Positions 7,715 through 55,851 of a stretch of 64,000 nucleotides of DNA are shown piece after piece. Numbering within the stretch: the first letter of the stretch is position 1; the number at the start of each line of letters is the position of its first letter. The notes under the pieces are model-generated. The model was not told the origin of the DNA, did no database searches, and worked only from the letters and a program-made list of their open reading frames with translations. The position numbers were made by a program, and so were the translations under genes. Location: NCBI GenBank assembly GCA_944324115.1, contig CALUVB010000016.1, positions 1 through 64,000 of the forward strand, read 5' to 3'. This stretch comes from an uncultured Elusimicrobiales bacterium (GTDB taxonomy: Bacteria; Elusimicrobiota; Elusimicrobia; Elusimicrobiales; Elusimicrobiaceae).

Positions 7715-8245
7715 CTACAATTGATATAGTTTTACCATGCCTCCAACATCAGAAGAAATATCACTCACATATTTTCCGCCCAAGCTTTGACAAACGCCTT
7801 GGGCCGCTTCGTCAGATTGCGCAGCCATACAATAGAGCTCCGGATAAAATACATAAAAATAAAATCCGCTTTTGTTCTTCATATACACCGTAAACGATTT
7901 TCCTCTATGCTGAATGGAATAACCAGCCGTTTTAAATTGTTCCATTCCGTCTGAAGATGTAGAGAAATCTGACATTTCATAATCCCAGCCCATATCCTTC
8001 AGACTTTCGCAGTTTCCGCCGGCCATCAAATCCAAGGCGCACAAATCTTTAAAATGTTTGGCAAACGCATAAAGCTGAACGGCGCGGGATTTTAATACCG
8101 CTTTCTCATATTTAGGCAAAGCAATAGCGGCTAAAATGCCGATAATCAGCACCACCACCAGAAGTTCTATAAGGGTAAAACCACCCAATCTGCCTTTGGC
8201 GCGGGAGTTAAGAAGGAAAGTCTTTTTTTGATAAATTTTTCTCAT
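7715..8245 (-). CDS. Type IV pilin-like protein (tandem copy 1)
   Basis: A 176-residue pilin-like protein starting MRKIYQKKTF. The basic leader of about 22 residues ends RLGG, then comes FTLIELLVVVLIIG with the +5 Glu and one N-terminal helix. The body carries paired Cys (LCALD, GGNCESL, ELYCMA) and the C-terminal signature CQSLGG shared with several other pilins here. I chose the ATG at 8245; a TTG two codons earlier is less likely. Its leader and helix are nearly identical to the neighbour at 8306-8854 while the C-terminal half diverges, so the two are tandem duplicates. A7 follows the leader codons for Tyr-Gln. Confidence 0.92.
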   Translation of the reverse strand: MRKIYQKKTFLLNSRAKGRLGGFTLIELLVVVLIIGILAAIALPKYEKAVLKSRAVQLYAFAKHFKDLCALDLMAGGNCESLKDMGWDYEMSDFSTSSDGMEQFKTAGYSIQHRGKSFTVYMKNKSGFYFYVFYPELYCMAAQSDEAAQGVCQSLGGKYVSDISSDVGGMVKLYQL

Positions 8246-8279
8246 AAGCAAAATTTATCAAAAAAAAAAAACAATGCAA
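8230..8279 (-). promoter_or_regulatory. Pilin promoter with T12 spacer and 30-bp palindrome
   Basis: Gene strand: -35 TTGCAT (8279-8274), spacer TG-T12-GA (16 nt), -10 TAAATT (8257-8252), then 6 nt and the ATG at 8245. The 30-bp palindrome 8230-8259 has 10-bp perfect arms (GATAAATTTT/AAAATTTATC). Its loop contains the start codon. Confidence 0.7.
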
Positions 8280-8305
8280 GGCTTTTGCGAGACGACACAA
8301 CTTAT

Positions 8306-8854
8306 TTAATTTAATTTATACCTTCCAATTGTGCCGCTGAATGACCCATTGGCTCCGCTACTCGTGCTAGAAAGGGTGCCGCCTAAACTTTTACATACAG
8401 CAACGGCATTAGCAGAACTTTGAAAAGCTGAGCAATAGATATTGGGATACTTTACATGGAAATAAATATCGTCATGTTTTTTTGTATAAACAGAAAAAGT
8501 ATCCTCTTTGTGCTGTATTTTAAAATCATTTGACTCAAAAGTTTCCATATTCTCATTTTCATAATCATTCTGATAATTATCCATAGGATAATCCCAACCC
8601 ATGTCTTTCAGCTTTGTGCAGTTTCCGCCAGCCATTAAATCCACGGCGCATAAGTCCTTAAAATGCTTAGCAAAAGCATAGAGTTGGACCGTGCGGGATT
8701 TCATTACCGAACGCGTATATTGCGGTAAAGCAATAGCGGCTAAAATACCGATAATCAGTACCACCACCAGAAGTTCTATAAGCGTAAAACCACCCAATCT
8801 GCCTTTAGCGCGGGAATTAAGAAGGAAAGTCTTTTTTTGATAAATTTTTCTCAT
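8306..8854 (-). CDS. Type IV pilin-like protein (tandem copy 2)
   Basis: A 182-residue paralogue of the gene just downstream, with the same leader MRKIYQKKTFLLNSR, the same cleavage region RLGG/FTLIE and an almost identical first 70 residues (KHFKDLCAVDLMAGGNC). The surface-exposed C-terminal half differs and ends in CKSLGG plus a Ser/Gly-rich tail. Conserved core with a diverged exposed region is what duplication followed by diversification would leave. It has its own promoter, a copy of the one at 8230-8279, and a 54-nt gap to the next pilin. Confidence 0.92.
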   Translation of the reverse strand: MRKIYQKKTFLLNSRAKGRLGGFTLIELLVVVLIIGILAAIALPQYTRSVMKSRTVQLYAFAKHFKDLCAVDLMAGGNCTKLKDMGWDYPMDNYQNDYENENMETFESNDFKIQHKEDTFSVYTKKHDDIYFHVKYPNIYCSAFQSSANAVAVCKSLGGTLSSTSSGANGSFSGTIGRYKLN

Positions 8855-8888
8855 AAGCAAAATTTATCAAAAAAAAAAAACAATGCAA
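8839..8888 (-). promoter_or_regulatory. Pilin promoter with T12 spacer and 30-bp palindrome
   Basis: Same layout as at 8230-8279: TTGCAT (8888-8883), 16-nt spacer containing T12, TAAATT, 6 nt, ATG at 8854. The palindrome 8839-8868 is identical to that of the tandem neighbour. Confidence 0.7.
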
Positions 8889-8929
8889 GGCCTTAGAAAC
8901 TGCAGTTAAAAGAAAATAAAAGGAATATC

Positions 8930-9157
8930 CTATTCTCTCAGCAGGAAAATTTTAGCCGGCGAAGTGGCTCCTTTGATAAGTGAGAGTTTGTTTTCCGCCA
9001 CGCCCAGATGTGCGCAAAGTGCTGCACGTACAGCGGCGTTGGCCTGTCCTCGCTCAGCGGGTGCTTTAACCCAAATTTCAAAACTGTCCGGCGTTTTTTG
9101 CAGGAGTTTTTCTTTTTTCTCCCCGGCATGCACTTTTACTTTTAGATAGTTTTCCAT
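8930..9157 (-). CDS. DUF167 (YggU-like) family protein
   Basis: A 75-residue protein matching the small DUF167/YggU family (cytosolic, function not established). The pattern is LKVKVHAGEKKEKL, FEIWVKAPAERGQANAAV and KLSLIKGATSPAKIFLL, which contains the family's conserved PAxxGxAN and G-x-x-S-x-x-K segments. Length is typical. TAAAAT ends 6 nt before the ATG with no Shine-Dalgarno, another probable leaderless start. The gene is isolated between a pilin and gpmI. Confidence 0.9.
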   Translation of the reverse strand: MENYLKVKVHAGEKKEKLLQKTPDSFEIWVKAPAERGQANAAVRAALCAHLGVAENKLSLIKGATSPAKIFLLRE

Positions 9158-9163
9158 AGGCTT

Positions 9164-9169
9164 ATTTTA
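9164..9169 (-). promoter_or_regulatory. -10 box of DUF167 gene, leaderless start
   Basis: Minus strand TAAAAT, then AAGCCT, then ATG: again a 6-nt gap and no Shine-Dalgarno. No TG extension is present. Confidence 0.4.
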
Positions 9170-9228
9170 CTTTTTCCCGGCTTTATACACTACCTGCCCC
9201 TTTTGCAAGGTGCAGATTTTCCAGATAT

Positions 9229-9261
9229 AAAAAGCGGGGACAAACTTTTGTTTGCCCCCGC
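9229..9261 (-). terminator. Terminator of gpmI
   Basis: A 12-bp stem with one mismatch (GCGGGGACAAAC with GTTTGCCCCCGC, 9234-9245 and 9250-9261) is followed on the minus strand by TTTTTAT. It begins 16 nt after the gpmI stop. Confidence 0.9.
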
Positions 9262-9277
9262 CTCCTACATACCAGAA

Positions 9278-10825
9278 CTATTTTTCAATCAAGCTCTTGG
9301 CGGTCATATCGGCCGGTTTTTGAATCCCCATCACCTGCAAGACTGTCACGGCTATATCGCCCAGGTTGCCCGTAGCGGCCATCTTAACTTTGGCGTCATC
9401 GGGATTTACATAAACGAAATCCACCAAGTTGGTAGTATGCGCCGTTTTAGGCATATTGATTTTTTCGTCCCACATTTCTTCCGCATTGCCATGGTCTGCC
9501 GTAATCATGACGGCATAGCCTTTAGCTAGGGCGGCTTCTGTCACTTTACCCACACATTCGTCTACCACTTCAATCGCTTTTACTACGGAATTGAAGTTGC
9601 CGGTGTGGCCCACCATATCGCCGTTGGCAAAGTTGATGACAATAAAGTCATACTTGCCGCCTTCCACTTGTTTAACGGCCTCATCAGCTACGCGGTAGGC
9701 TTCCATTTCCGGGTGTTCGGCAAAAGTGGCCGGGTCAAAGCGGCCCTTAATTTCAATGCGGTCTTCTCCTTCATACGGCTGGATTTGTTTGCCGTTAAAG
9801 AAAGATGTTACATGTTTAAACTTTTGCGTTTCCGCCAAGCGCAGCTGCTTAAGCCCCGCCGCAGAAATGACCTGCCCCAGCAAATTATTCATACCGCCGC
9901 CATCAGTCATAGAGGGCAAGGCATTGTACGGGAAAGAATCATAATATTTCGTCAACCCGCAGTATACACAGGGCACACGGGTAATTTTGCCCGGGTAGGC
10001 AGGGTCAATAAAAGCTTTAGTCAACTGAATGGCTCTGTCTTGGCGGAAGTTAAAGAAAATTACGCTATCCCCTTCCGCCATGCCTTTATAATCCCCCAAC
10101 ACGGTAGGCGGAATATATTCGTCTACCATCGGGCCGCCGTCGGGCGTTTTTAAGGTATCATAATCGGTTTGTACGGCCTCTTCTGCCGTTTTGGCATGGG
10201 CGCCCTGGGCGTGCACAATGAGGTTATAGGCTTTGTCGGTTAAATCCCAGTCTTCGCTGCGGTCCATGGCATAGTAGCGGCCTTGAATGGTGGCAATTTG
10301 TCCTACGCCGCATTGCTTTATAACATCTTCCAATTGGCGGATAAAGCCGATGGAAGATTTCGGCGGCGTATCACGCCCGTCAGAAAAGAAATGAATGTAC
10401 ACTTGTTTAATCCCTTTTTCGGCGGCGTATTTTAAAATAGCAAACAGATGATCTTGGTGGGCGTGCACGCCTTCATCTTGCACCAGCCCCATAACATGCA
10501 AGGCTTTCTTGTTATTCAGACAATTATCAATAGCGGCAGAAAACGCGGCCGATTTAAACAAAGATCCGTCTTCTATCGTATCTTTCAAACGTTTCAATTC
10601 TTGCACCACAATGCGGCCCGCCCCCATATTCAAGTGCCCCACTTCAGAAGACCCCATATATCCCGCCGGCAGCCCCACCTGTTCACCAGAAGCTTCAATC
10701 TGGGTATGCGGCCACTGAGAGAGATATTTGTCCATATTGGGTGTTTTGGCATTAGTAACGGCATTATATTTGCCAGGCTTGGCATCACCCCAGCCGTCAC
10801 GTATAATCAAAACTACTTTTTTCAT
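9278..10825 (-). CDS. gpmI: 2,3-bisphosphoglycerate-independent phosphoglycerate mutase
   Basis: iPGM interconverts 3- and 2-phosphoglycerate in glycolysis through a Mn-dependent phosphoserine. The 515-residue protein has IIRDGWG (metal Asp), the nucleophile region GYMGSSEVGHLNMGAGRIV, FFSDGRDTPP, the phosphate-binding FNFRQDRAIQLTKAF, and the alkaline-phosphatase-superfamily metal sites NFANGDMVGHTG and MITADHGNAEEM. The start at 10825 follows a good AAGGAG; the longer reading to 10855 has no such site. It has its own promoter-like TATAAT near 10875 and a terminator. Confidence 0.97.
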   Translation of the reverse strand: MKKVVLIIRDGWGDAKPGKYNAVTNAKTPNMDKYLSQWPHTQIEASGEQVGLPAGYMGSSEVGHLNMGAGRIVVQELKRLKDTIEDGSLFKSAAFSAAIDNCLNNKKALHVMGLVQDEGVHAHQDHLFAILKYAAEKGIKQVYIHFFSDGRDTPPKSSIGFIRQLEDVIKQCGVGQIATIQGRYYAMDRSEDWDLTDKAYNLIVHAQGAHAKTAEEAVQTDYDTLKTPDGGPMVDEYIPPTVLGDYKGMAEGDSVIFFNFRQDRAIQLTKAFIDPAYPGKITRVPCVYCGLTKYYDSFPYNALPSMTDGGGMNNLLGQVISAAGLKQLRLAETQKFKHVTSFFNGKQIQPYEGEDRIEIKGRFDPATFAEHPEMEAYRVADEAVKQVEGGKYDFIVINFANGDMVGHTGNFNSVVKAIEVVDECVGKVTEAALAKGYAVMITADHGNAEEMWDEKINMPKTAHTTNLVDFVYVNPDDAKVKMAATGNLGDIAVTVLQVMGIQKPADMTAKSLIEK

Positions 10826-10901
10826 AAATTTTCTCCTTACCTTTTGGCCGCGCAAACGCGGCGCTTATCTCTTATATTATATGAAAGTATGCACCCGGCA
10901 G

Positions 10902-11510
10902 TCACGGCAGCGGGGTAAGCCCCAACACTACGGATTCATGCCGTTTTTGTTGATACTTCTGCAATTCTTCCAGTGTATTGACGCCGCCACGGACAAAGTC
11001 GTGCAAAAAGTTATACAATACTTTTTCCGTCATGCGGACATCGGCCATAGCCCGGTGGGCGCCGGCGCTGTTAATACCCAATGCCGCAGCAATAACGCCC
11101 AAATTATTACGCGGGAAACAGCCGTTTTTACGGGCCAGTTTCAGCGTATCCAGCACGGGATAAGCCGGCAAACGCAAACCGCAAGCGTGCACCTCCGAAC
11201 GCAAGAAAGAAAGATCAAACTTGGCATTATGCATTACCAACACGCAGCCGTCTAATAAACTCAGCAATTGCGGCAAAACCGCTGCAAAATCCGGCGCATT
11301 TTTTACCATCTCATTGGTAATCCCATGGATAGCTATTACATCGGGGTGTATAGCAATACCCGGATTTAACAGAGTGGAAAATTCTTCCAATTTGTATCCG
11401 TTGCGGCTGACGGAAACGGCTATCTCACAGATTTTGCCCCCTTGCTTGGGGCTCAATCCTGTCGTCTCTGTATCTAAACAAGCAAATTTAACTTCTGTAA
11501 GCGGGGTCAT
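10902..11510 (-). CDS. DnaQ-like 3'-5' exonuclease
   Basis: A 202-residue DEDDh exonuclease of the DNA polymerase III epsilon type, which removes nucleotides from 3' ends for proofreading or repair. Exo I is FACLDTETTGLSP, Exo II MHNAKFDLSFLRSEV, and Exo III HRAMADVRMTEKVLYNFL with the His. No C-terminal polymerase-binding or GIY-YIG domain follows, so it could be the replicative epsilon subunit or a stand-alone repair enzyme. The start at 11510 overlaps the stop of the upstream gene as ATGA, implying translational coupling. It ends the three-gene operon that begins with a sensor kinase. Confidence 0.9.
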   Translation of the reverse strand: MTPLTEVKFACLDTETTGLSPKQGGKICEIAVSVSRNGYKLEEFSTLLNPGIAIHPDVIAIHGITNEMVKNAPDFAAVLPQLLSLLDGCVLVMHNAKFDLSFLRSEVHACGLRLPAYPVLDTLKLARKNGCFPRNNLGVIAAALGINSAGAHRAMADVRMTEKVLYNFLHDFVRGGVNTLEELQKYQQKRHESVVLGLTPLP

Positions 11511-12220
11511 GGTTGTAAATAAAAGCTCCATTTGGTCAAAAATCCGACTGCCGTCGCCCCAAAAGCGCTAAAATACAAGGCAAAACGGGAAAAATCCATC
11601 AACCGGTTGCGTCTGGCCATACGGCACGCCCACAGCCAAGCCACAAACCAGATCACCCATCTCCACCCGGGCAGCAGCACTATCAAATAAAAAATCAAGC
11701 GCATCAACATAGTCACAAAACTTTCATCAATCGTAGGATAATCCCGCCCATACATATCTTGTTCTACCATATAGATAAAGACATTAAACATTTTCGTCAC
11801 GATTAAGACCCCTACAAAAAAGATAACCCACGGGTCCGCCACCAAATTGCCCGTCTCATAAAGCACCCGAGTAGGAGCACACAGAAAAATAAACAATAAA
11901 GCCAGCGTATCATGTGCAACAAACGTCAAAGCGTGATAATGTTGCTGTCCTTTGCGATAAACCAGTATTTTATTATTTAACGCTTCAAACACAGCAAACG
12001 CCGCCAAGCACGCAATAGACGGCACCTTCCATATTCCCAATAAAGGCCACGGCAAATGCAGATATGCCCAAGTCAACCCAGTCCCCAATATAAAATAAAC
12101 AGACACTTGCACCAATGCCGCCAGTGCGGGTTTGCGGTCGCGCCATGCAAAAAAAGTACGGTTATAGAAAAAAACGGCTCCTATATAATAGGCCAATACT
12201 AAACGCCAGAAAACACTCAT
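11507..12220 (-). CDS. Hypothetical polytopic membrane protein
   Basis: A 237-residue integral membrane protein with about six or seven hydrophobic segments (near residues 5-20, 35-55, 65-80, 100-118, 132-150, 170-190 and 210-230). A conserved-looking polar stretch YHALTFVAHD lies inside it. I do not recognise the family. It overlaps the sensor kinase upstream and the exonuclease downstream by 4 nt each (ATGA), so all three are tightly coupled. The context suggests either a membrane partner of the kinase or a chance operon. Confidence 0.8.
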   Translation of the reverse strand: MSVFWRLVLAYYIGAVFFYNRTFFAWRDRKPALAALVQVSVYFILGTGLTWAYLHLPWPLLGIWKVPSIACLAAFAVFEALNNKILVYRKGQQHYHALTFVAHDTLALLFIFLCAPTRVLYETGNLVADPWVIFFVGVLIVTKMFNVFIYMVEQDMYGRDYPTIDESFVTMLMRLIFYLIVLLPGWRWVIWFVAWLWACRMARRNRLMDFSRFALYFSAFGATAVGFLTKWSFYLQP

Positions 12221-13929: not shown

Positions 13930-13971
13930 ATCCTTATTTATTATAGCAATTACAGCCCGCGCAAAGCCCTC

Positions 13972-15448: not shown

Positions 15449-15492
15449 AAAAAAGAAAGAAACCCCGTTTTGATAAGCGGGGTTTCTTTCTT
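15449..15492 (-). terminator. Terminator of the frameshifted pilin
   Basis: A long stem (AAGAAAGAAACCCCG with CGGGGTTTCTTTCTT) overlaps the pilin stop codon. On the minus strand it runs into a T-rich stretch. Confidence 0.8.
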
Positions 15493-16026
15493 ATGGCAAC
15501 GTATAATAAGTAATTGCTCCACCAGAAACTGTATAACCATCAGCTCCGCCCAAACTTTTACATACCCTATGTCCCATCTCATTTCTGGCGCCGCAAAGTC
15601 TTTTGCTTGTACCATACACTGGATAATATGTAGCAAAACTCATACTACAATACAGTGTAGGCAGGTTTCCGTTGCCGGAGCCATCTTGTAATGTGCAATA
15701 TGCGCCGTCAGCAGTCTGAATAGAACGACCATTATTTTTTAATTCCCAGCCGGCCGGAGGCATTATATCCAAATTAGAAAAATCAAATGAATATTCTCCG
15801 TTTTCCATCACATAACGTTCAAGCGATTTTTTATAAGATTCCGCTAAGCTCATCACCTGCACATATCGGCTGCGCATGACGGCGGTCTGATATTGGGGCA
15901 AAGCTACCGCCGCCAAAATGCCAATTATCAGCACTACCACCAATAGTTCAATGAGCGTAAAACCGCCTATTTCCCACGCTAATGAATTTTTTTTGTAAAG
16001 AAGGCTTTCTGATAAATTTTGCTCAT
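15491..16026 (-). CDS. Type IV pilin-like gene, start out of frame (possible phase-OFF)
   Basis: The body is an intact pilin: GGFTLIELLVVVLIIG, YQTAVMRSRYVQ, CKSLGG and the C-terminal YYTLP also seen in paralogues. The expected start at 16026 (MSKIYQKAFF, equivalent to MRKIYQKKTF in other copies) is out of frame. After an A8 tract (15994-15987 region) that frame reads KKIH and stops at TAG. One extra A (A9) or two fewer would join the leader to the pilin as MSKIYQKAFFTKKNSLAWEIGG. The only in-frame start codon is a TTG at 16042, which lies upstream of the -10 box and so outside the predicted mRNA. Either a slipped-strand OFF state, decay, or a homopolymer sequencing error. Confidence 0.8.
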
Positions 16027-16061
16027 ATGCAAAATTTATCAAAAAAAAAAAAACGAGTCAA
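16011..16061 (-). promoter_or_regulatory. Pilin promoter with T13 spacer and 30-bp palindrome
   Basis: TTGACT (16061-16056), spacer CG-T13-GA (17 nt), TAAATT (16038-16033), 6 nt, ATG at 16026. The palindrome 16011-16040 has perfect 12-bp arms. Of the set, this one has the best -35 and the optimal 17-nt spacing. Confidence 0.72.
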
Positions 16062-26354: not shown

Positions 26355-26858
26355 CTATAATTCACACTGTCCCTGCCCGCACAACCTCTTACAAGTAGCG
26401 TCTCCGTCATCGTCTGCACAATGAAAAACTAAATTATCATCTCCCCAAGAAGGGCCAAATATATAATAAGGCCAACTTTCACTCAAACGAACTGCCCACG
26501 CATTTTCCCCATCTGTATTATACTCCCAATCCTTCGTACGAAACGCCGGGAAAGAGCTGGAGCTCTCAGCCCCCGAAGTAAGCGCTTTTCCACCTGTATC
26601 CAAATAATTTTCCAATAACCATTCCGAACACACCGTTCCTCCTGCTTCTACAGAAGAGTCCCCCGTCTCCATCACACATAGGCGGTGTAAATCATAAATA
26701 TGACGCAACATGATTTTAGCTTCAGCCGTTCGGGATTTCTCTACCGCTTTCTCATAGCGAGGCAATGCCACCGCCGCCAATATGCCGATTATCAGCACCA
26801 CTACCAATAGTTCAATAAGTGTAAAACCGCCTATTTTGCCCGTAGAATGATTTGCCAT
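26355..26858 (-). CDS. Type IV pilin-like protein (second tandem pair, copy 1)
   Basis: A 167-residue pilin with a short leader MANHSTGKIGG and then FTLIELLVVVLIIG. Cys residues occur at LCVMETG, TVCSEW, FHCADD and the end CKRLCGQGQCEL, a variant of the CKSLGG signature. The ATG follows an AGAGG site, so this copy is translated with a leader RNA, unlike the MRKIYQK-type pilins. The leader, helix and promoter are almost identical to the neighbour at 26994-27488, while the C-terminal regions differ strongly. Confidence 0.92.
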   Translation of the reverse strand: MANHSTGKIGGFTLIELLVVVLIIGILAAVALPRYEKAVEKSRTAEAKIMLRHIYDLHRLCVMETGDSSVEAGGTVCSEWLLENYLDTGGKALTSGAESSSSFPAFRTKDWEYNTDGENAWAVRLSESWPYYIFGPSWGDDNLVFHCADDDGDATCKRLCGQGQCEL

Positions 26859-26874
26859 ATCCAGACCTCTTTTT

Positions 26875-26924
26875 GATACATTTTATCTTCTGATAAAATG
26901 TATCAAAAAAAAAAAACAATGCAA
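26875..26924 (-). promoter_or_regulatory. Pilin promoter with T12 spacer and 30-bp palindrome
   Basis: TTGCAT (26924-26919), spacer TG-T12-GA (16 nt), TACATT (26902-26897). The palindrome 26875-26904 has perfect 13-bp arms (GATACATTTTATC and its complement) with a 4-nt loop. The ATG lies 38 nt downstream of the -10 behind an AGAGG site, so here the palindrome is not constrained by coding. Confidence 0.72.
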
Positions 26925-26993: not shown

Positions 26994-27488
26994 TCACTCA
27001 AAACCCATACTTTCACAAAGCCCTTCTATCTGACTGGAACAAGCCGTTTTGCCGGGTGAGTCGGAATGGTCTAACCAAATTTTGTAAGTTGTTTGAGATG
27101 ATAATTCGGCACTATCTAAGCCTCTGCCATTATTTTCTAAACCATGGGTATCATAAAACAACAGATTTTTCGTACTACCTGCAAATATATCTACCGCAAA
27201 ATTATCACACCACAACATATAATAACTAATGGAGGACTGATCACAGCCCGGATATTCTATATCCAGCTCATTCCAGAATTTAGGATATGTTCCGTTTGCC
27301 ATATAGTAAACCTCCATAGCGTCTTTTAAAGATTTCCCCGCCATGATAAGATTTAGATAACGGGACTTTGCCACCGCTTTTTCATACTGAGGTAATGCCA
27401 CCGCCGCCAATATGCCGATTATCAGCACCACTACCAATAGTTCAATAAGTGTAAAACCGCCTATTTTGCCCGTAGGACGATTTGCCAT
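26994..27488 (-). CDS. Type IV pilin-like protein (second tandem pair, copy 2)
   Basis: A 164-residue pilin whose leader (MANRPTGKIGG) and helix match the preceding copy. The helix is followed by YEKAVAKSRYLNLIMAGKSL and a body with three Cys pairs, ending CESMGFE, a short form of the shared C-terminal signature. An AGAGG Shine-Dalgarno precedes the ATG. Its promoter differs from the tandem copy only in tract length (T13 rather than T12) near the boxes. Confidence 0.92.
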   Translation of the reverse strand: MANRPTGKIGGFTLIELLVVVLIIGILAAVALPQYEKAVAKSRYLNLIMAGKSLKDAMEVYYMANGTYPKFWNELDIEYPGCDQSSISYYMLWCDNFAVDIFAGSTKNLLFYDTHGLENNGRGLDSAELSSQTTYKIWLDHSDSPGKTACSSQIEGLCESMGFE

Positions 27489-27504
27489 ATCCAGACCTCT
27501 TTTT

Positions 27505-27555
27505 GATACATTTTATCTTCTGATAAAATGTATCAAAAAAAAAAAAACAATGCAA
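27505..27555 (-). promoter_or_regulatory. Pilin promoter with T13 spacer and 30-bp palindrome
   Basis: TTGCAT (27555-27550), spacer TG-T13-GA (17 nt), TACATT; the palindrome 27505-27534 is identical to that at 26875-26904. The one-base difference in the T tract between two otherwise matching copies is direct evidence that the tract changes length. Confidence 0.74.
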
Positions 27556-40396: not shown

Positions 40397-40939
40397 TTAT
40401 GGAAGCAAATAAATATCGCAGCCGGAACAAGAACCATGATTGGAGCTACCAAACTTTTGCCCGCCTAACCCCTTACATACGGCCTGGCCGTCTCTGTTGT
40501 CCGGCATGGTCCAGCATTCCCTGTGGTTTTCCCCCGGCCGGAACCATTGGGCATAAGCCACTACTTGAGGAGTGCCGATTTTAAGAAAGCAAACAATATT
40601 CTCATCTTCTCCCCCATACAAGTCACAAGACACTTTTGAACAATGCATATAACCGCGTTCTTCACTGTCGCTGGCCGCGCAGCCCGGCACATCTACCCGC
40701 AGGCCGGCCCAATAATTGGGCCCGGAACCATGCCGGATATAATATTGAGAGGCCGCTTTTGCATAATTTCCTGCCAGAATTTGCAGCTGTACAAAACGGG
40801 ATTTAAGTACCGCCCGGTTGTAGATAGGCAACGCAATAGAAGCCAAAACGCCAATAATCAGCACCACCACCAGCAGTTCCCCCAGTGTAAAGCCGCCTTT
40901 ATAAGAAGTGAAATGTTTTTTTATAAGAGAAGATATCAT
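40397..40939 (-). CDS. Type IV pilin-like protein
   Basis: A 180-residue pilin with leader MISSLIKKHFTSYKGG and then FTLGELLVVVLIIG; Gly replaces the usual Ile before the +5 Glu. The body is Cys-rich (VPGCAAS, HCSKVSCD, ECWTMP, CKGLGG) and ends CSGCDIYLLP. It is a paralogue of the pilin at 41491-42030 (shared RECWxxxDNxDxxxxCKxLGG and YLLP). An AAGGG site precedes the ATG. Its promoter keeps the TTGCAA and TACATT boxes but has no homopolymer, so it may be a non-switching member of the set. Confidence 0.92.
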   Translation of the reverse strand: MISSLIKKHFTSYKGGFTLGELLVVVLIIGVLASIALPIYNRAVLKSRFVQLQILAGNYAKAASQYYIRHGSGPNYWAGLRVDVPGCAASDSEERGYMHCSKVSCDLYGGEDENIVCFLKIGTPQVVAYAQWFRPGENHRECWTMPDNRDGQAVCKGLGGQKFGSSNHGSCSGCDIYLLP

Positions 40940-41490: not shown

Positions 41491-42030
41491 CTAGGGCAAT
41501 AGATAGCGGGCACAACCCCCATATGATTCGCAAGAATAACTTACCGGACTTCCCGCTTCTATTCCGCCCAAGCTTTTACACAAGCTTAGTGCGTCTTTAT
41601 TATCATTCCTGGCCCAACATTCACGCGTATTATTATTAGGCCCAAAAAACTGCACATAAGCCGCAATATAAGGCACACCCCTCAGATGAATAAAACAGAC
41701 GATATTTTCATCTCCATTATTCATTAAATCACATTCCACATCTCTACCGTACGCCCACCCCCTATAAGCACTACTGACAGTCCACCCCGTAGGCAAGGCC
41801 ACATCCATATCAGTCCAATAACCCGGCGCTTCTCCATTTGCCCAATAATACCGGGCGGCGGCATCGGCAAAACTTTTTGCAATGGTTTGCGCTTGCACAA
41901 AACGTGAACGCAATACCGCCCGGTTATACTGCGGCAAAGCAATAGCCGCCAAAATACCAATTATCAGCACCACCACCAACAGCTCTATCAGCGTAAAACC
42001 ACTGAATAACCCCTTATAACGATTTTTCAT
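41491..42030 (-). CDS. Type IV pilin-like protein
   Basis: A 179-residue pilin with leader MKNRYKGLFSG and then FTLIELLVVVLIIG. Body features include YWANGEAPGYWTDMDV, ECWARNDNKD, CKSLGG and the end CARYLLP, matching the paralogue at 40397-40939. A longer upstream reading runs back through the promoter and is not credible; the ATG at 42030 follows AGAGG. It is the copy with the shortest promoter tract (T11). Confidence 0.92.
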   Translation of the reverse strand: MKNRYKGLFSGFTLIELLVVVLIIGILAAIALPQYNRAVLRSRFVQAQTIAKSFADAAARYYWANGEAPGYWTDMDVALPTGWTVSSAYRGWAYGRDVECDLMNNGDENIVCFIHLRGVPYIAAYVQFFGPNNNTRECWARNDNKDALSLCKSLGGIEAGSPVSYSCESYGGCARYLLP

Positions 42031-42045
42031 CGGAGGCCTCTTTTT

Positions 42046-42094
42046 GATAAATTTTATTTCCCGATAAAATTTATCAAAAAAAAAAAACAATGCA
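42046..42094 (-). promoter_or_regulatory. Pilin promoter with T11 spacer and 30-bp palindrome
   Basis: TTGCAT (42094-42089), spacer TG-T11-GA (15 nt), TAAATT. The palindrome 42046-42075 has perfect 12-bp arms (GATAAATTTTAT). A 15-nt spacer is short for sigma-70, so this copy may be weakly transcribed as printed. Confidence 0.72.
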
Positions 42095-42246
42095 AGCCCT
42101 TTTATAACAACCCGTACAAAGGTGACGAGATTGCCACCCCTCACGGCAGACGCAGCTCACGCATGTTTTTTTGGCAGCAGGACAGACGGAGTCCGCACGG
42201 CGGGCACGGAGCGGCCCGCCCATGCAAGCAGACAAATCGCATCAGA

Positions 42247-46558: not shown

Positions 46559-47179
46559 TTATTTGCAACAACAGCCGTCATATCCCACATCGGGCAGATT
46601 AAGCAGTTTAGCATAATCAAAACTCGGCGTATCTCCATTACCCACATCTTGAGCCAAGACCAATTCCCCATTTTCTCCGTAACAAATACACACGTCTTCT
46701 TTTTGATATTGCACACGGGCCAAATTTTTGTTGCCGTTGCAATCTTCGCCAAGTCCTATTATATAGATAAAATTATTCTGAGTCCGCGTCATCGTTTCCC
46801 AGCCCACCAATCCTGATGATTTGTCATCTGGGAAAGTAATACTCATATCTTCAAAAGAACACCAATCCCCTTTTTCCAGATGACAGACTTGAGCAGCTTG
46901 GGCCACAGCGCGCAAATTAAGCAACGCTTCCGCAAAGCGGCTCTTAGCCACCGCTTTCTGATATTGAGGCAAGGCCATTGCCGCCAAAATACCAAGGATC
47001 AGCACCACGACCAGCAGCTCTATCAGCGTAAAACCGCAGCGCATTGCGGCGGAAGGGGCGGTTTGAAAGAAGAAAGCTTTTGCATTTATGGCACAAGCCC
47101 GAACCCCGCCAATAAAGCCGTCAAACACGCGTTTTGCGGGATTTTTTTGAACAGACATATTCTTTGGTACTTTTTGCAT
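46559..47179 (-). CDS. Type IV pilin-like protein with long leader
   Basis: A 206-residue pilin from the ATG at 47179. The leader would be about 50 residues, much longer than in the other copies, ending AAMRCG before FTLIELLVVVLILG; an internal ATG just before RCGF would give a 4-residue leader but lacks a ribosome site. The mature part matches the pilin at 55278-55817 (AKSRFAEALLNL, EDVCICY, SFDYAKLLNLPD) and ends in a Cys cluster GCCCK. The promoter has a mixed T9G9 spacer, unlike all other copies. Confidence 0.88.
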   Translation of the reverse strand: MQKVPKNMSVQKNPAKRVFDGFIGGVRACAINAKAFFFQTAPSAAMRCGFTLIELLVVVLILGILAAMALPQYQKAVAKSRFAEALLNLRAVAQAAQVCHLEKGDWCSFEDMSITFPDDKSSGLVGWETMTRTQNNFIYIIGLGEDCNGNKNLARVQYQKEDVCICYGENGELVLAQDVGNGDTPSFDYAKLLNLPDVGYDGCCCK

Positions 47180-47217
47180 ACAAGCAAAATGTACCCCCCC
47201 CCAAAAAAAAAATGCAA
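47167..47217 (-). promoter_or_regulatory. Pilin promoter with T9G9 spacer and palindrome
   Basis: TTGCAT (47217-47212), an 18-nt spacer made only of T9 then G9, TACATT (47193-47188), 8 nt, ATG at 47179. The 28-bp palindrome 47167-47194 (GTAC arms) has one mismatch and its loop overlaps the start codon region. Poly-G is among the most slippage-prone tracts known. Confidence 0.72.
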
Positions 47218-50930: not shown

Positions 50931-50939
50931 GGAGACGCT

Positions 50940-51521
50940 ATGAAAAAACTACTTCTGCCCGCTTTCTGCGCGCTGCTGACGCTGGCCTGCGGCACGGAAG
51001 GGGCTTATTATAAACCCCAAGCCCAAATCATGCCCCAACATATCAAAAAAATTGCGGTGCGGCCTATATTAAATAAAACCGAAATTTTTGCCATGGAAGA
51101 CAAATTGTACTTAACTTTATATGACGAATTTTTGAAAAATGGAAGTTATCAAATCGTCAGTGAGGACAATGGGGCAGAAGGGGTTATCGTCACCACCATC
51201 ACCCGCTATTTAAACGTACCTGTACAATATGACAGCCAGCTTATCCCTACCGTATACAAAATGGACGTATGGTTAGATGTCGTATTGATGGATAAATCCA
51301 CCAATACCCCTGTTTGGCGCGAGCCGGCTTTTCTGGGTACGCAGACTTATTCCGCATCTACACTGCCCGGCGGGTTAACCGAACAACAAGCCCGTGAGCG
51401 CGTATGGCAAAAACTCTCCAAAGACATTGTAAAACGTACAGTAGATGGATTCGGCTCCGTCATGAGTGAAAATAAAAAGAAAGTGATGCAGAACCCCGAA
51501 TACACCACTATTACCCAATAA
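50940..51521 (+). CDS. lptE: LptE-like LPS-assembly lipoprotein
   Basis: A 193-residue lipoprotein with signal peptide and lipobox LTLAC (Cys17), so anchored by lipid, probably in the outer membrane. LptE plugs the LptD barrel that inserts lipopolysaccharide. The body shows the LptE/DUF4136-like pattern IKKIAVRPILNKTE, LYDEFLKNGSYQIV and GVIVTTITRYLNVPV. Sequence similarity in LptE is low, so the call leans on synteny between leuS and holA, which is the E. coli order. GGAG precedes the ATG. It supports an LPS-bearing diderm cell. Confidence 0.85.
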   Translation: MKKLLLPAFCALLTLACGTEGAYYKPQAQIMPQHIKKIAVRPILNKTEIFAMEDKLYLTLYDEFLKNGSYQIVSEDNGAEGVIVTTITRYLNVPVQYDSQLIPTVYKMDVWLDVVLMDKSTNTPVWREPAFLGTQTYSASTLPGGLTEQQARERVWQKLSKDIVKRTVDGFGSVMSENKKKVMQNPEYTTITQ

Positions 51522-52537
51522 TGCCCAAAACTACTGCCGCCAAATTGGAACAAGCTCTTGCGAAACATACCATTTCCCCCGTCTATTTGCTGACGGGGGA
51601 AGATGTGTTCCGCAAACAAGAACTTATCAAAAAAATTATTCATGCCGTACAACCAGACGATTTTAATATTTATTCTTCCGCAGCAGATAAAGCGGATTTG
51701 GGAGAGGCCTTAGCACTGGCAAATACGGCCCCGGTATTTTCGGAGCGCCGCTTAATTATATTAACCGGCATAGACAAATTACGCAAGGACCCCAAAGAAG
51801 CGCTTATACAATACTTAGAGAATCCGCTAGACACTACCGTACTCGTTTTAACACACGATGATAATAAAAAATTAAAAACGGAAAAAGCCCTCGCAGCCGC
51901 CGCAGCCGAACACGGACAAAGCGCTAATTTTGACGAACTGAAACACGATGAATTATCCCTTTGGGTCACAAATCGCCTCAAAGAACAAGGCTTAAACGGC
52001 ACTTTTGAAGCGATAGAAACCCTCTGTGAAGCCGTGGGAGGAGACTTAAATGCCCTATCCCAAGAGATAGAAAAATTGGCACTTTATACAGCAGACCGGG
52101 AAGACAAGACCATTTCCAAAGAAGACATCTTGGCCGGCATTGGTTTTTCAAAAGAAGAAAACCCGTTCGCTCTTTCTAATGCCGTACAGTATTTAAACAA
52201 AAACAAAGCCCTTATTTTGACAGACAAATTGCTCGACAGCGGAGAAGACCCCGTGGGCGTGCTGGGCAAAATATCCTATCCGATATTGAAAATGGCCCGT
52301 ATTAAGCGCATGGTCAACGCGGGTATGGCTCCGGCAGAAATTACACGCGCGGCGGGGCTGATGTTTTGGGAAAGCAATCTAGTCAACAATGCCCGCAATT
52401 TTCCTTCGGAAGAAACATTCCTCAAAACGTTGGACCGTATTATAGAAACGGATAAAGCTTTTAAAACTTCATCTTCTTCAGACCCCAAAACAGCCATTAA
52501 AGGGATTCTGCTTACTTTATTTGCGGGAAAAAATTAA
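51521..52537 (+). CDS. holA: DNA polymerase III delta subunit
   Basis: The clamp-opening subunit of the clamp loader, 338 residues. The start has TISPVYLLTGEDVFRKQELI, then NTAPVFSERRLIILTGIDKL and a C-terminal collar domain (GEDPVGVLGKISYPILKMARIK split across two helices). Weakly conserved as a family, but length, motif order and position after lptE fit. It shares the last base of the lptE stop with its ATG, and ends overlapping a convergent pilin by 4 nt. Confidence 0.93.
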   Translation: MPKTTAAKLEQALAKHTISPVYLLTGEDVFRKQELIKKIIHAVQPDDFNIYSSAADKADLGEALALANTAPVFSERRLIILTGIDKLRKDPKEALIQYLENPLDTTVLVLTHDDNKKLKTEKALAAAAAEHGQSANFDELKHDELSLWVTNRLKEQGLNGTFEAIETLCEAVGGDLNALSQEIEKLALYTADREDKTISKEDILAGIGFSKEENPFALSNAVQYLNKNKALILTDKLLDSGEDPVGVLGKISYPILKMARIKRMVNAGMAPAEITRAAGLMFWESNLVNNARNFPSEETFLKTLDRIIETDKAFKTSSSSDPKTAIKGILLTLFAGKN

Positions 52538-53094
52538 TTAAAAAGCGTTCTAAAAGAACGGCACCAATTTTGCCCGGCAGCCGTACGCCCAATGCATGAC
52601 TTTTGTCCTCCTTGGCTTTCATGGTGGGCATAGTATAAATCTAAAACGACATCTGCCGCCTGGGTACAGCCATTGCTGCCTAATTCATTTTGTCCAGGGC
52701 AATAAGCTACTCTCAAATGCCCAGTAGCAAGAACATTTCCGCTTACATTATCTAATAGCCAGTCCGTACCACAAAGAATTTCATTAGGAGCCCACCCCAC
52801 CGCCCTCGGTCGACAATCAGCAGGAATTTGTATATCCAAATTTGCCATATCAAACGCATATTCTCCATTGCTCATATAATATCTTTCCTGTGCATCCATT
52901 AGCGAACGCACCAAAGGCATAAAACTCATCAAACGCGCCCTCAACACCGCAGCCTCATATTTAGGAAAGGCAATGGCTGCCAAGATGCCGATAATCAACA
53001 CCACCACCAAAAGCTCAATCAGCGTAAAACCGCCTAAACGGCGTTTTGCGGATTTGTTAACAACGGAGAAGCTTTTTTGATACATTTTCTTCAT
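52534..53094 (-). CDS. Type IV pilin-like protein
   Basis: A 186-residue pilin starting MKKMYQKSFSVVNK with leader ending RLGG, then FTLIELLVVVLIIG. Its middle (ERYYMSNGEYAFDMANLDIQIPA) strongly resembles the frameshifted pilin at 15491 (ERYVMENGEYSFDFSNLDIMPPA), so those two are paralogues. Several Cys and an end CRSFRTLFN that has lost the Gly-Gly of the C-terminal signature. The ATG lies 6 nt after the -10 box. No terminator is visible before holA, so convergent transcripts overlap. Confidence 0.92.
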   Translation of the reverse strand: MKKMYQKSFSVVNKSAKRRLGGFTLIELLVVVLIIGILAAIAFPKYEAAVLRARLMSFMPLVRSLMDAQERYYMSNGEYAFDMANLDIQIPADCRPRAVGWAPNEILCGTDWLLDNVSGNVLATGHLRVAYCPGQNELGSNGCTQAADVVLDLYYAHHESQGGQKSCIGRTAAGQNWCRSFRTLFN

Positions 53095-53128
53095 ATTCAA
53101 AATGTATCAAAAAAAAAAAACAATGCAA
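53079..53128 (-). promoter_or_regulatory. Pilin promoter with T12 spacer and 30-bp palindrome
   Basis: TTGCAT (53128-53123), spacer TG-T12-GA (16 nt), TACATT (53106-53101), TTGAAT, ATG at 53094. The palindrome 53079-53108 has perfect 10-bp arms (GATACATTTT) with the ATG in its loop. The next 295 nt up to rpsT hold no gene I can see. Confidence 0.72.
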
Positions 53129-53375
53129 GGGAAATCCCCGTTGCCAGCCACCCCAACAGCCCTCTGTGTGCTTTTCCGTCAAGCTGGACCAGGTTCTGAT
53201 TATTCCCGCGCACCCGCTGAAAAAAGAGAAATTCGCCTCAGGAGGTCCCGCCATTTCAAAATGAATTTACCAGAAGAATCGAAAGGACCGCCAGCCGATG
53301 ATTAGGCCCTTCCAACCGTACGCCGGAACGTACCGCAAGAAGCTTCTGTAAATATTTCCCGGCCCCAGTAAATAT

Positions 53376-53402
53376 AAAAACCCGCGCTCTGCAGAACGCG
53401 GG
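53376..53402 (-). terminator. Terminator of rpsT
   Basis: Stem CCCGCG/CGCGGG (53381-53386 with 53397-53402), extended by AAA/TTT and followed on the minus strand by TTTTTATA. Confidence 0.85.
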
Positions 53403-53424
53403 TTTAAATTTAAAACGACTGTTT

Positions 53425-53736
53425 TTATTTGGCTTTAGCGGCGGTTTTTTTGGCCGGAGCTTTTTTGCCTTTGTTTACAGCTTTAGCCAAGCGCGATTTT
53501 TTGCGCGCGGCAGTTTTCCAATGAATGGTTTTCTTCTTGGCAGCCTTATCAATGCTAGCAGCAGCGGCTTTCAAGTCTTCCGCCACGGTGGCGGCTTCAG
53601 CCTTGACGGCGGCGAGCACCTTTTTGGTAGCCGTGCGCACTTTTTTCATCAGGCCTTTGTTCTGGGAAGTTCTCTTCTCAGCTTGTCTTTGCGCTTTTAA
53701 AGCGCCGGTATGTCTTCCGGTTTTCAATTTTGCCAT
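53425..53736 (-). CDS. rpsT: 30S ribosomal protein bS20
   Basis: A 103-residue, Lys/Ala-rich three-helix protein that binds the 5' domain of 16S rRNA. KAQRQAEKRTSQNKGLMKKVRTATKK matches the S20 start (AxxRxRQNxxR..K..xR) and AAKKKTIHWKTAARKKSRLAK the conserved second half. The tail KKAPAKKTAAKAK is longer than in E. coli. It is monocistronic with its own terminator. Confidence 0.93.
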   Translation of the reverse strand: MAKLKTGRHTGALKAQRQAEKRTSQNKGLMKKVRTATKKVLAAVKAEAATVAEDLKAAAASIDKAAKKKTIHWKTAARKKSRLAKAVNKGKKAPAKKTAAKAK

Positions 53737-53885
53737 TGTAGTTTTCCTCGCGAGAAAATCTCTCTTGGTATATATTTTACCCTATTTAGAGGGCGGGGTC
53801 AAATTTTCCCGCCGGGCACCCCGGCTTTCGGCCCTCTTATTTTATAGTAAATCTTTTTTCCGGCTTTTGGTCCAGTAAAATTAAA

Positions 53886-53894
53886 TGTTAGAAT
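53886..53894 (+). promoter_or_regulatory. Extended -10 box of uvrC, leaderless start
   Basis: TGT-TAGAAT (TAGAAT 53889-53894) ends 5 nt before the uvrC ATG. No Shine-Dalgarno. Confidence 0.5.
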
Positions 53895-53899
53895 AAAGC

Positions 53900-55231
53900 A
53901 TGGACCCCAGAATAGAATTGCTGCCCAAAAAGCCCGGCGTATATATCATGCGTTCCCGTGAGGGGGCGGTTATTTACGTCGGGAAAGCGAAAAACCTCTC
54001 CGACCGCGTTAAGCAATATTTTCAAGACAGCAACCTCTATTCGCGCGGCTGGAAACTGCCCAGTCTGCTGCCGCTGATTTGGAAAATAGATTATGTGACC
54101 ACCGCCTCCGAGAGAGACGCCCTAGTGCTGGAAGAAAAACTGATTAAAAAATACCAGCCTTTTTTCAATTCGTTGGGGAAAGATGACAAACGCTATCCTT
54201 TTTTAAAACTCTCCATGTCGGAAGATTTTCCCCGTCTATCCGTCGTACGAAAACGCGCCTCCGGTAAAGATTTATATTTTGGTCCTTATCCCAAATCCAG
54301 CATGGTGCGCAGCTTAATGCGCTTTTTATGGAAAAGCAAATATGCTCCGCTGCGTCCGTGCAAATGGGCCTTTTCCCGTCAGAAGCCATTGGAAGAACGC
54401 AAAATAAACACCTGTTTATATTTTCACACGGGTTTGTGCCCAGCCCCGTGTGCCGGCAAAATATCTTATGAAGACTACCAGAAAATCGCTCAGCGAATGG
54501 CGTTGTTTTTAGAAGGAGATTTCAAGGAAATTTCCCAAAGCCTCACCGCCCATATGAAACAATGCTCCGACGCCATGCAATATGAAAAAGCCGCCGTGTA
54601 CCGCAATTTCTTACACGCCTTAGATCATATGCGGGAGCGGGTGATTGTCAGCCAATACAAAGAAGAGAAAATCACCCATGCCATCGCCAATTCTGACAAG
54701 TTAAAACGCTTGGCGCATCTTGTGGGGCTTTCCCGCCTGCCGGCGCATATAGAAGCATTTGACAATTCCCATCTGTTTGGCAGAGAAGCCGTCGGCTGTA
54801 TGGTATGCTATATTAACGGCGAGAAAAACCATGAACATTACCGCCGTTTTAAAATCAAATCCCCGTTGCCCGCCGCCGGAGGAAGCGACTTCACCATGAT
54901 GCAGGAAAGTGTGTACCGCCGCCTGCGCCAAATCAAACGGGACCCGGCACAAAAACCAGACTTGTTTTTATTAGATGGAGGAAAAGCTCAAATTACAGCT
55001 GCCCTAAACGCTTGTGAAAAAGCGGGATTATATATACCCATGATTTCTTTGGCTGAAACACATGAAGGCATCTATGTGCCCGGAAAAGATAAAAGCATTA
55101 AATTGCCCCTGGGAGATCCTGCCTTAAATTTGCTCATGGAAATCCGTGACGAAGTACACCGCTTTGCAGTCACATATCACCGCAAATTAAGAGACAAAGC
55201 TTCCGTCTCAAATCAAGGGCATCTTTCCTAG
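53900..55231 (+). CDS. uvrC: UvrC-like excinuclease subunit, C-terminally short
   Basis: UvrC makes both incisions in nucleotide excision repair. This 443-residue protein has the GIY-YIG domain (KPGVYIMRSREGAVIYVGKAKNL split around GKAKNL), a four-Cys-like segment CLYFHTGLCPAPCAG, a UVR motif (DAMQYEKAAVYRNFLHAL) and the RNase H-like domain with AFDNSHLFGREAVG and LFLLDGGKAQI. It ends at HRKLRDKASVSNQGHLS. E. coli UvrC is about 610 residues, and its C-terminal (HhH)2 DNA-binding domain is absent here. No matching HhH codons follow the stop, so this looks like true loss rather than one frameshift. Confidence 0.92.
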   Translation: MDPRIELLPKKPGVYIMRSREGAVIYVGKAKNLSDRVKQYFQDSNLYSRGWKLPSLLPLIWKIDYVTTASERDALVLEEKLIKKYQPFFNSLGKDDKRYPFLKLSMSEDFPRLSVVRKRASGKDLYFGPYPKSSMVRSLMRFLWKSKYAPLRPCKWAFSRQKPLEERKINTCLYFHTGLCPAPCAGKISYEDYQKIAQRMALFLEGDFKEISQSLTAHMKQCSDAMQYEKAAVYRNFLHALDHMRERVIVSQYKEEKITHAIANSDKLKRLAHLVGLSRLPAHIEAFDNSHLFGREAVGCMVCYINGEKNHEHYRRFKIKSPLPAAGGSDFTMMQESVYRRLRQIKRDPAQKPDLFLLDGGKAQITAALNACEKAGLYIPMISLAETHEGIYVPGKDKSIKLPLGDPALNLLMEIRDEVHRFAVTYHRKLRDKASVSNQGHLS

Positions 55232-55277
55232 CGGTGGGCTTTTTCCGTCATATTCAACTGCAGCCGCCAAACACACC

Positions 55278-55817
55278 TCAACAACAAGAACAAACACCGG
55301 AATCCTCCGGTATATTCAACAACTTGGCATAGTCAAAAGAGGCTTGCTGTTCCACACAACCGTTAGAAGATACGAAAAAGCCCTCTTGATTTAAACACAG
55401 ACAGACATCTTCCTTTTTATATTGAGCCACTACGGTCCCGTCGCTGGCAACCCCAGAAGCATAATCACTGCCCATATACCAAAAATCTTTTGTCTCCATG
55501 GCGGCGCATTCGTCATTTGCCATAAAATTGCAATCCGCCGGCACACTGCCTACCGATACGTCTAATTCAGAAATATTACAGCTTTCTTTGCCGCTCAAGC
55601 GGCAAATTTGGTCTGCCTGCCACAGAGATTTTAAATTGCTAAAAGCCTCCGCAAAACGCGCTTTTGCTACGGATTTCTGATATTGCGGCAACGCTACCGC
55701 CGCCAAGATGCCTATAATTAAAACCACTACCAATAATTCTATCAACGTAAAACCACCTATAAGGCGTTTTGCGGGGCGCTGTTTAATGGAAATATTTTTC
55801 TGATATATTTTTTTCAT
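55278..55817 (-). CDS. Type IV pilin-like protein with Cys-rich C-terminus
   Basis: A 179-residue pilin starting MKKIYQKNISIKQR, leader ending LIGG, then FTLIELLVVVLIIG and AKARFAEAFSNLKSL. The C-terminus EDVCLCLNQEGF, ASFDYAKLLNIPED, GVCSCC defines a subfamily with the pilin at 46559-47179. The Cys clusters suggest several disulfides or metal binding. The gene lies just downstream of pilT on the same strand, with a terminator and its own promoter between. An A7 tract directly follows the ATG. Confidence 0.92.
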   Translation of the reverse strand: MKKIYQKNISIKQRPAKRLIGGFTLIELLVVVLIIGILAAVALPQYQKSVAKARFAEAFSNLKSLWQADQICRLSGKESCNISELDVSVGSVPADCNFMANDECAAMETKDFWYMGSDYASGVASDGTVVAQYKKEDVCLCLNQEGFFVSSNGCVEQQASFDYAKLLNIPEDSGVCSCC

Positions 55818-55851
55818 AAGCAAAATTTATCAAAAAAAAAAAATGAGTCAA
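55802..55851 (-). promoter_or_regulatory. Pilin promoter with T12 spacer and 30-bp palindrome
   Basis: TTGACT (55851-55846), spacer CA-T12-GA (16 nt), TAAATT (55829-55824), TTGCTT, ATG at 55817. The palindrome 55802-55831 has 10-bp arms with one mismatch and holds the ATG in its loop. Confidence 0.72.

Follow-up and report, generated by a model that had tools for sequence, protein, structure and literature searches.

Promoters with homopolymer spacers upstream of dispersed type IV pilin genes in an uncultured Elusimicrobiaceae bacterium

Pilin genes and promoters at the locus

The 64,000-nucleotide stretch of DNA analyzed here (the window) is a part of contig C16 from the 1.53-Mb genome of an uncultured Elusimicrobiales bacterium of the family Elusimicrobiaceae (G000; 96% complete, 25 contigs). 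It contains 11 places matching the N_methyl profile, by which pilin genes were defined. Nine of the 11, all on the minus strand, are preceded by a promoter in which TTGCAT or TTGACT is separated from TAAATT or TACATT by a nearly pure homopolymer, as a first-pass annotation of the window had described; the −35 and −10 boxes of all promoters discussed below are sequence predictions. In window order, the tracts are T12, T12, T13, T12, T13, T12, T9G9, T12, and T12, and the spacers are 16, 16, 17, 16, 17, 16, 18, 16, and 16 nucleotides (nt) long. The annotation had listed eight of the tracts with these lengths, but the sixth (42076–42087) is T12 and not T11, and the spacer range of 15–18 nt narrows to 16–18 nt on measurement. 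The T run of T9G9 becomes T10 if the last T of TTGCAT is counted. The encoded proteins have the GFTLIE cleavage and methylation motif of type IV pilins together with a hydrophobic helix, and TIGR02532 scored above its cut-off in all ten pilins scanned, which are the nine with tract promoters and the one at 48–605.

The first two pilins are tandem paralogs. The gene at 7715–8245 (N_methyl, TIGR02532), the ATG of which is positioned 6 nt past the −10 box, has the promoter TTGCAT-TG-T12-GA-TAAATT at 8252–8279, with T12 at 8260–8271 and a 16-nt spacer. The same promoter sequence at 8861–8888 (T12 8869–8880, spacer 16 nt) serves the paralog at 8306–8854 (TIGR02532). The third promoter, TTGACT-CG-T13-GA-TAAATT (16033–16061, T13 16041–16053, spacer 17 nt), precedes a pilin at 15491–16026 in which the ATG frame ends after 15 codons and the pilin motif is in another frame. 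An A8 run at 15987–15994 is located in the leader of this gene beside the frame closure; it is possible that the run is a second, translational slippage site or that the gene is a plain pseudogene. The promoters TTGCAT-TG-T12-GA-TACATT (26897–26924, T12 26905–26916, spacer 16 nt) and TTGCAT-TG-T13-GA-TACATT (27527–27555, T13 27535–27547, spacer 17 nt) belong to pilins at 26355–26858 (N_methyl, TIGR02532) and 26994–27488 (TIGR02532), each with its ATG 38 nt past the −10 box. In the sixth gene, at 41491–42030 (TIGR02532 in a scan from 42066), this distance is 37 nt, and the promoter is TTGCAT-TG-T12-GA-TAAATT at 42068–42095 (spacer 16 nt). The promoter TTGCAT-T9G9-TACATT (47188–47217, T10 47203–47212, G9 47194–47202, spacer 18 nt) stands before a pilin with a long leader at 46559–47179 (TIGR02532), with its ATG 8 nt past the −10 box. 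The last two promoters, TTGCAT-TG-T12-GA-TACATT (53101–53128, T12 53109–53120) and TTGACT-CA-T12-GA-TAAATT (55824–55851, T12 55832–55843), both with 16-nt spacers, precede the pilins at 52534–53094 and 55278–55817 (both N_methyl, TIGR02532).

The window contains nine runs of T or A that are at least 9 nt long, and these are the nine promoter tracts; the remaining T or A runs are at most 8 nt long. A first-order Markov model of the window gives an expectation of approximately seven runs of at least 9 nt (T 3.1, A 4.3). For runs of at least 12 nt, the expectation derived from the Markov figures is approximately 0.4, compared with eight that were found, all of them 5′ of pilins and in one orientation. 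Therefore, the pattern of nine promoters is not due to chance.

Tract promoters across the genome

Upstream DNA was extracted for all 92 N_methyl places of G000; some of these places are half genes or duplicates located at the ends of contigs. A tract promoter, composed of TTGNNN, a T run, and a TANATT-like box, is present at 60 of the 92 places, which have in this way the simple repeat between predicted −35 and −10 boxes that characterizes transcriptional contingency loci. Among the 60 promoters, the tract is T12 in 42, and the spacer is 16 nt long in 43, 15–18 nt in 52, and 10–14 nt in eight. The spacing of sigma-70 promoters (17 ± 1 nt) is satisfied by 51 of the 60, with imperfect boxes. 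A genome-wide search gave 24 matches of TTGCATTG-T10 in G000 and none of the reversed control.

T tracts of at least 9 nt occur 72 times in G000, and 66 of them stand 5′ of pilin genes or their remnants; among the 66 are three extra T runs adjacent to a promoter tract near contig ends. None of the six non-pilin tracts fits TTG-run-TANATT, which makes it unlikely that the T run is a general strong promoter of the genome. Two of the six (C3:111511 and C10:84896) stand before open reading frames. The 32 pilins without a recognized tract promoter, several of which are cut at contig ends, include C1:136501, where a T12 run is present and the −10 box is poor. A T35 tract precedes the decayed pilin at C13:98, T15 and T19 runs are located near a contig end at C16:85308–85341, and several contigs of G000 end within pilin genes.

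The T-run pilins of any one contig of G000 all face the same way. In the window, their minus-strand orientation corresponds to positive GC skew of the leading strand in 15 of 16 bins; the sign of the skew agrees on other contigs, where it comes from short stretches around pilins and is partly circular. In the related genome G047, pilin orientation reverses between 185 and 265 kb of contig C1, as it would at a replication origin or terminus, and one tract on contig C3 of G045 opposes the rest. The housekeeping neighbors in the window occupy both strands, unlike the T-run pilins.

Three other explanations were rejected. Gene conversion from silent cassettes of the Neisseria pilE/pilS type does not apply, because 60 of the 92 pilins own a T-run promoter. 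Against a phage or mobile origin, none of the sites was found in viral_contigs with two patterns. An intrinsic terminator or RNA element was discarded because the Rfam matches in the window are two tRNAs only, and the hairpin, read in the sense of the pilin, would have As after it instead of Ts.

A palindrome spans the −10 box and the start of the gene

An ATG is positioned 5–7 nt past the −10 box in 53 of the 57 T-run promoters with a TANATT-like box, and its frame enters the pilin in 50. Because this ATG, approximately 6 nt past the −10 box, is at the normal distance of a transcription start, the pilin mRNAs are predicted to be leaderless and to start at the ATG.

The T run is followed by TGATANATTTTGN-N6-NCAAAATNTATCA, the 13-base-pair (bp) arms of which surround the start codon to form a 32-bp palindrome over the −10 box and first codons. 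The palindrome occurs eight times in the window on the minus strand, each time at a tract promoter (8229–8260, where it reaches over pilin codons 1–6; 8838–8869; 16010–16041; 26874–26905; 27504–27535; 42045–42076; 53078–53109; and 55801–55832, with imperfect symmetry), and it is absent from 100 shuffles. The ninth promoter, at 47188, has a diverged form. Neither the close ATG nor the palindrome had been noted in the first-pass annotation. The palindrome is retained where the ATG is located outside of it, downstream with a GAGG site (starts at 26858, 27488, and 42030).

The arms of the palindrome covary. In an alignment of 126 sites, which include a few misaligned or non-palindromic ones, the third base of the −10 box and its mirror position in codon 4 form 79 A-T, 26 C-G, and four G-C pairs. 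Watson-Crick pairs thus account for 109 of 126 sites against 67 expected (Fisher 5e-15, with relatedness of the sites not removed). The C-G form turns the Ile of codon 4 into Met. The codon-2 pair covaries likewise, with 83 Watson-Crick pairs against 50.5 expected. At the codon-2 pair, C.A mismatches (21) exceed T.G mismatches (5), as would be expected if the site functions as DNA and not as an RNA hairpin; the neighboring pair, with 12 G.A and nine G.T, is neutral in this respect. A hairpin hiding the start codon is also made somewhat less probable by the predicted transcript start, which omits the left arm. T8–T12 pilin promoters without the palindrome occur elsewhere in the genus (G011, G028, G041, G044, G045, G049, and G060); therefore, the T run and the palindrome are separate features.

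Distribution of the promoters in relatives

The pattern CTTGNNNNN-T8-N(0-10)-GATA has at least five matches in 42 and at least one match in 50 of the 66 genomes of the genus, and the reversed control has none in all 66. Among 24 other genomes of the family, three from one genus have at least five matches, and three have one or two. Of 149 sampled genomes from the phylum, 105 are from outside the family, and none of these has more than one match (13 of 105, compared with eight of 105 for the reversed control). The promoter pattern is at background outside the family. Within the genus, the pattern undercounts: some zero-match genomes, such as G011, G028, and G041, have T10–T12 tracts before pilins in another register. 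The elements flanking the tract vary (TTGCATTG, TTGACTCG, TTGATTTG, TTGACGCG) while the tract stays pure.

Genomes of the genus have from 22 to at least 105 pilins; one scan of the relatives sought the GF cleavage site only, and the AF pilins of G060 were found in a separate scan. G056 has 36 pilins, one match of the pattern, and no recognized pilin at most of the window sites, and the pilin set is therefore dispensable. The intergenic sites of G056 that match window sites A, C, D, and F hold no recognized pilin. The comparison suggests that single pilin genes are gained and lost rapidly.

Length of the tracts

The tracts of G000 range from T6 to T17, yet 42 of 60 are T12. The same length was counted by eye in 36 of the 44 rows listed for G053. 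At five places (C1:116924, C3:95481, C3:119174, C18:109, and C18:16712), the run has swallowed flanking bases; the spacer is 16 nt long in three of these and 17 and 14 nt in the others. The tract is T12 upstream of 42 of 56 intact pilins, but of none of six broken or decayed ones (C3:86350 T14, C3:95481 T17, C16:15899 T13, C18:16712 T14, C23:57202 T13, and C13:98 T35). The probability of this difference arising by chance is approximately 0.0006 (hypergeometric sum) after two genes with the ATG at the motif itself, C1:83040 and C12:50009, were shifted by hand from broken to intact, and 0.001 before the reassignment. The intact class takes in genes cut by contig ends; the T12 promoters C22:104 and C25:104, the pilins of which are truncated at contig ends and do not count among the 92 places, belong to neither class. 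T12 thus seems to be kept where the gene works.

The remaining 14 of the 56 intact pilins with a promoter have tracts of other lengths, among which T6–T11 and T14 occur. Of the eight promoters with 10–14-nt spacers, seven precede open frames of 169–206 amino acids; a contig end truncates the eighth. One of the seven frames is without an in-frame ATG, and the other six are intact pilins. T12 looks like a working length held by stabilizing selection, with a slippage-prone minority of tracts around it.

The rate of length change was compared with that of the flanking DNA in 132 promoters from G000, G008, G016, and G047, using T runs joined to the −10 box by two bases and having a TTG within 9 nt, and 62 flank bases per pair. 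This filter leaves out antisense readings of the palindrome. The tract differs in four of 11 pairs with at most one flank difference, in 29 of 114 pairs with two to nine differences, and in 108 of 412 pairs with 10–12. The 11 near-identical pairs have five base differences in 11 × 62 flank bases. As measured in these 11 pairs, length changes in the tract greatly outpace base changes in the flanks. Because near-identical pairs differ in their tracts at least as often as diverged ones do, the lengths show no trace of how closely two promoters are related, as slippage predicts.

Individual promoters illustrate the change. The T12 tract at 26905 and the T13 tract at 27535 have 62 identical flank bases, and T12 and T8 tracts at C23:5207 and C23:1098 have identical or near-identical flanks. 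All 14 tracts found in G019 share one flank and are T11 (six), T12 (seven), or T13 (one). At the site of the pilin with the promoter at 47188, the tract is T12 in G016, G008, and G047 and T9 in G043, and the pilin of G056 lacks a T run; in the window, a homopolymer of another base has entered the T run to give T9G9. Interruptions of the tract are rare, with two in G047 and one each in G012, G045, and G016 among the promoters listed. In two tracts of G061 (C48 and C86), NN stands close to where the run ends; mixtures of lengths in the sample could be the cause.

Interpretation of the promoter class

We consider it probable that a dedicated class of promoters controls the large and scattered set of type IV pilins of this Elusimicrobiaceae genus, and that its members are low-frequency contingency loci held near the ON state. 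The T-run promoters would be read by sigma-70 RNA polymerase, with T12 as the working (ON) spacer length. Slipped-strand gain or loss of Ts would shift the spacing and weaken or silence single pilins; T11, T13, or larger changes would arise occasionally, and selection would keep most loci at T12. Each promoter would be a transcriptional contingency locus that is switched at low frequency and held near ON by selection. The palindrome over the −10 box would act as DNA, most likely as an operator through which the pilins of this clade are regulated together. Such a repertoire may exist by design or as a side effect, since the sequence alone is compatible with both.

Several observations weigh against this interpretation. 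In eight other genomes, 69 of 103 tracts are T12 and 70 of 103 spacers are 16 nt long, and in G060 (101 sites) 25 of 26 listed tracts are T12; this dominance is as compatible with a fixed promoter element as with a switch. The comparison of broken with intact genes was made after the data had been seen and involves six broken genes, and the flank-matched slippage test comprises 11 pairs of paralogs that are not independent. Scans for the usual spacing in the group, which bears on the ON length, disagree: away from pilins, TTGACA-TANNNT matches are most frequent at 17 nt (31, compared with seven at 16 nt), although a smaller TTGACN-TATANT scan peaks at 16 nt (ten, compared with five at 17 nt). 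If 17 nt is the usual spacing, the tighter twist of the A-tract may offset the difference. Homopolymer lengths in metagenome assemblies may be wrong, the data are sequences of one assembly per species, and the presence of mutS in G000 means that the bacterium is not an obvious mutator. The first-pass annotation had proposed that each pilin switches independently, so that cells would differ in pilus composition; this proposal is supported in part. In its favor, the promoters are sigma-70-like, have a spacer of the slippage type that changes length faster than its surroundings, and occur almost exclusively at pilins scattered among housekeeping genes. The concentration of lengths at T12 and 16 nt within and across species, together with the enrichment of other lengths before broken pilins, looks like selection for one working length, not free toggling.

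A more far-reaching form of the proposal is a combinatorial pilus switch, in which 60–100 pilins per genome, with T12 as ON, leaderless mRNAs, a shared start-codon operator, and co-orientation with replication, would give every cell in the animal gut its own pilin mixture, one that drifts over time. We put this forward tentatively, as something that may be the case.

It is rather unlikely, in our estimate, that T12 is a fixed structural element of the promoter, a rigid A-tract under purifying selection for which slippage would be a cost and not a switch. Poly(dA).poly(dT) has a tighter twist, and 16 bp with T12 could act like 17 bp. A fixed element would account for the strong preference for T12 and 16 nt across divergent species, the spacing often retained when the flanks change (three of five places), and the loss of T12 once a pilin breaks. 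However, it would leave unexplained why the runs are nearly confined to pilins, with six of the 72 tracts elsewhere and none of these in a fitting promoter, why G9 replaces part of the run in one promoter, and why off-length tracts (T6–T11, T14) precede intact pilins; moreover, a pure run is the least stable design for a spacer.

Similarly doubtful is the explanation that the palindrome is the control element, with a regulator that binds and covers the −10 box, and that the Ts are a part of its site or a recruiting element. The covariation of the arms (109 of 126 sites and 83 sites at the two pairs) and the retention of the palindrome where the ATG is outside of it (26874, 27504, and 42045) agree with a regulator site, but some T-run pilin promoters elsewhere in the genus lack the palindrome, and the palindrome does not explain the T run.

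It is improbable that consensus errors in the metagenome assemblies account for the variation in homopolymer length. The named relatives are nearly all metagenome assemblies, and N occurs in the two G061 tracts; however, T12 recurs across many separate assemblies, and T6, T8, T14, and T17 are large departures from it. The off-lengths also follow gene breakage, although poor local assembly could produce both. Recent duplication and homogenization of one pilin cassette, with a functionless tract conserved by descent, would fit the tandem near-identical pairs (8117/8726, 26763/27393, and the C25 copies) and the presence or absence of pilins at the same sites in relatives, but is highly improbable given that the elements around the pure tract vary, the palindrome covaries, and the tract length is lost in broken copies.

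Comparison with known phase-variable promoters

The class of mechanism is already established in other bacteria. The vlp genes of Mycoplasma hyorhinis are few and clustered, with an A tract between the −35 and −10 boxes, whereas here at least 60 pilins are dispersed, one length is dominant, and switching is presumed. The promoter of each vlp gene has a homopolymeric A tract, insertions and deletions in which turn the gene ON and OFF (PMC10502178), and both systems are multi-gene surface families with a homopolymer in each gene's own promoter.

In fetA of Neisseria, a homopolymer between the −10 and −35 boxes alters spacing and transcription, and the gonococcal porA tract is listed as (T)11C(G)6T (PMC5320596), which resembles the T9G9 variant at 47188. 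The parallel with porA drawn in the first-pass annotation is apt. By contrast with the single genes porA and fetA, the promoters described here belong to a whole pilin repertoire and include a palindrome and predicted leaderless mRNAs. The T-tract length of sabA from Helicobacter pylori tunes the promoter like a rheostat via DNA structure (PMC4081817); that tract is reported to adjoin the −35 box and to act on UP-like contacts, whereas the tract of the pilin promoters is the spacer.

The vlhA genes of Mycoplasma gallisepticum are, like the pilins, a large surface family with a repeat in each promoter, and were long considered active at exactly 12 GAA repeats (PMC6258824). Their lengths are mostly 6–12, with eight the commonest and zero to three genes per genome at 12, in contrast to 42 of 60 pilin promoters at the mode. 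The sortase pili of the gut commensal Bifidobacterium breve are switched by replication slippage in a G-tract (PMC9187656); there, the tract is intragenic and switches the frame in two clusters, whereas here the tracts are in promoters of type IV pilins.

The cultured Elusimicrobium minutum has many pilin genes. A search of open-licence papers on Elusimicrobia combined with pilins, phase variation, or homopolymers found no report of this set of promoters. The excerpt of a study of Endomicrobium pilins in DNA uptake (PMC8809381) contains neither "promoter" nor "phase var", and that of PMC6668835 mentions Elusimicrobia once, for Tad systems.

If the interpretation is correct, a single genome has at least 60 loci with a promoter-spacer repeat for one gene family. 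With dozens of parallel promoters, many species, and broken copies as controls, the effect of spacer length and A-tract structure on promoter strength could be read from a natural experiment. The interpretation also predicts a leaderless pilin regulon with a putative regulator, and a source of diversity among the pili of gut bacteria that can be tested.

Neighboring genes and other pilins

The first-pass annotation placed the pilins among housekeeping operons, which holds for most of the ten flanking genes scanned (gpmI, proS, dnaG, recA, holA, kdsC, and a uvrC-like gene among them). However, the pilin at 55278–55817 adjoins a type IV pilus ATPase gene on the minus strand at 55929–57008 (T2SSE, PF00437), the product of which is PilT-like judging by its size. 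G000 encodes four T2SSE ATPases, the sole components of the pilus machinery that were searched for. An etfB-like protein encoded in the window has 80–97% matches to gut and rumen records titled Elusimicrobiales, Elusimicrobiaceae, Elusimicrobium, or uncultured bacterium, and its more distant matches fall below this range.

The two pilins of the window without a homopolymer promoter are located at 48–605 on the plus strand (N_methyl, TIGR02532) and at 40397–40939 on the minus strand. The latter has a similar −10 box with a mixed-sequence spacer, and its whole-protein N_methyl score of 21.1 is just below the cut-off of 21.2. A subset of pilins, formed by the one at 46559–47179 and copies on contigs C18, C22, and C4, has leaders of approximately 40–75 residues before the cleavage site, longer than those of other pilins in G000. 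In other pilins of G041 and G060 (L174, L175, L177, and L178), the 5′ leader contains a strong hairpin that is conserved, ACGGCTGTTT...AAACAGCCGT, and then Ts; the leader resembles an attenuator, and the one that was folded has a z of −6.45.

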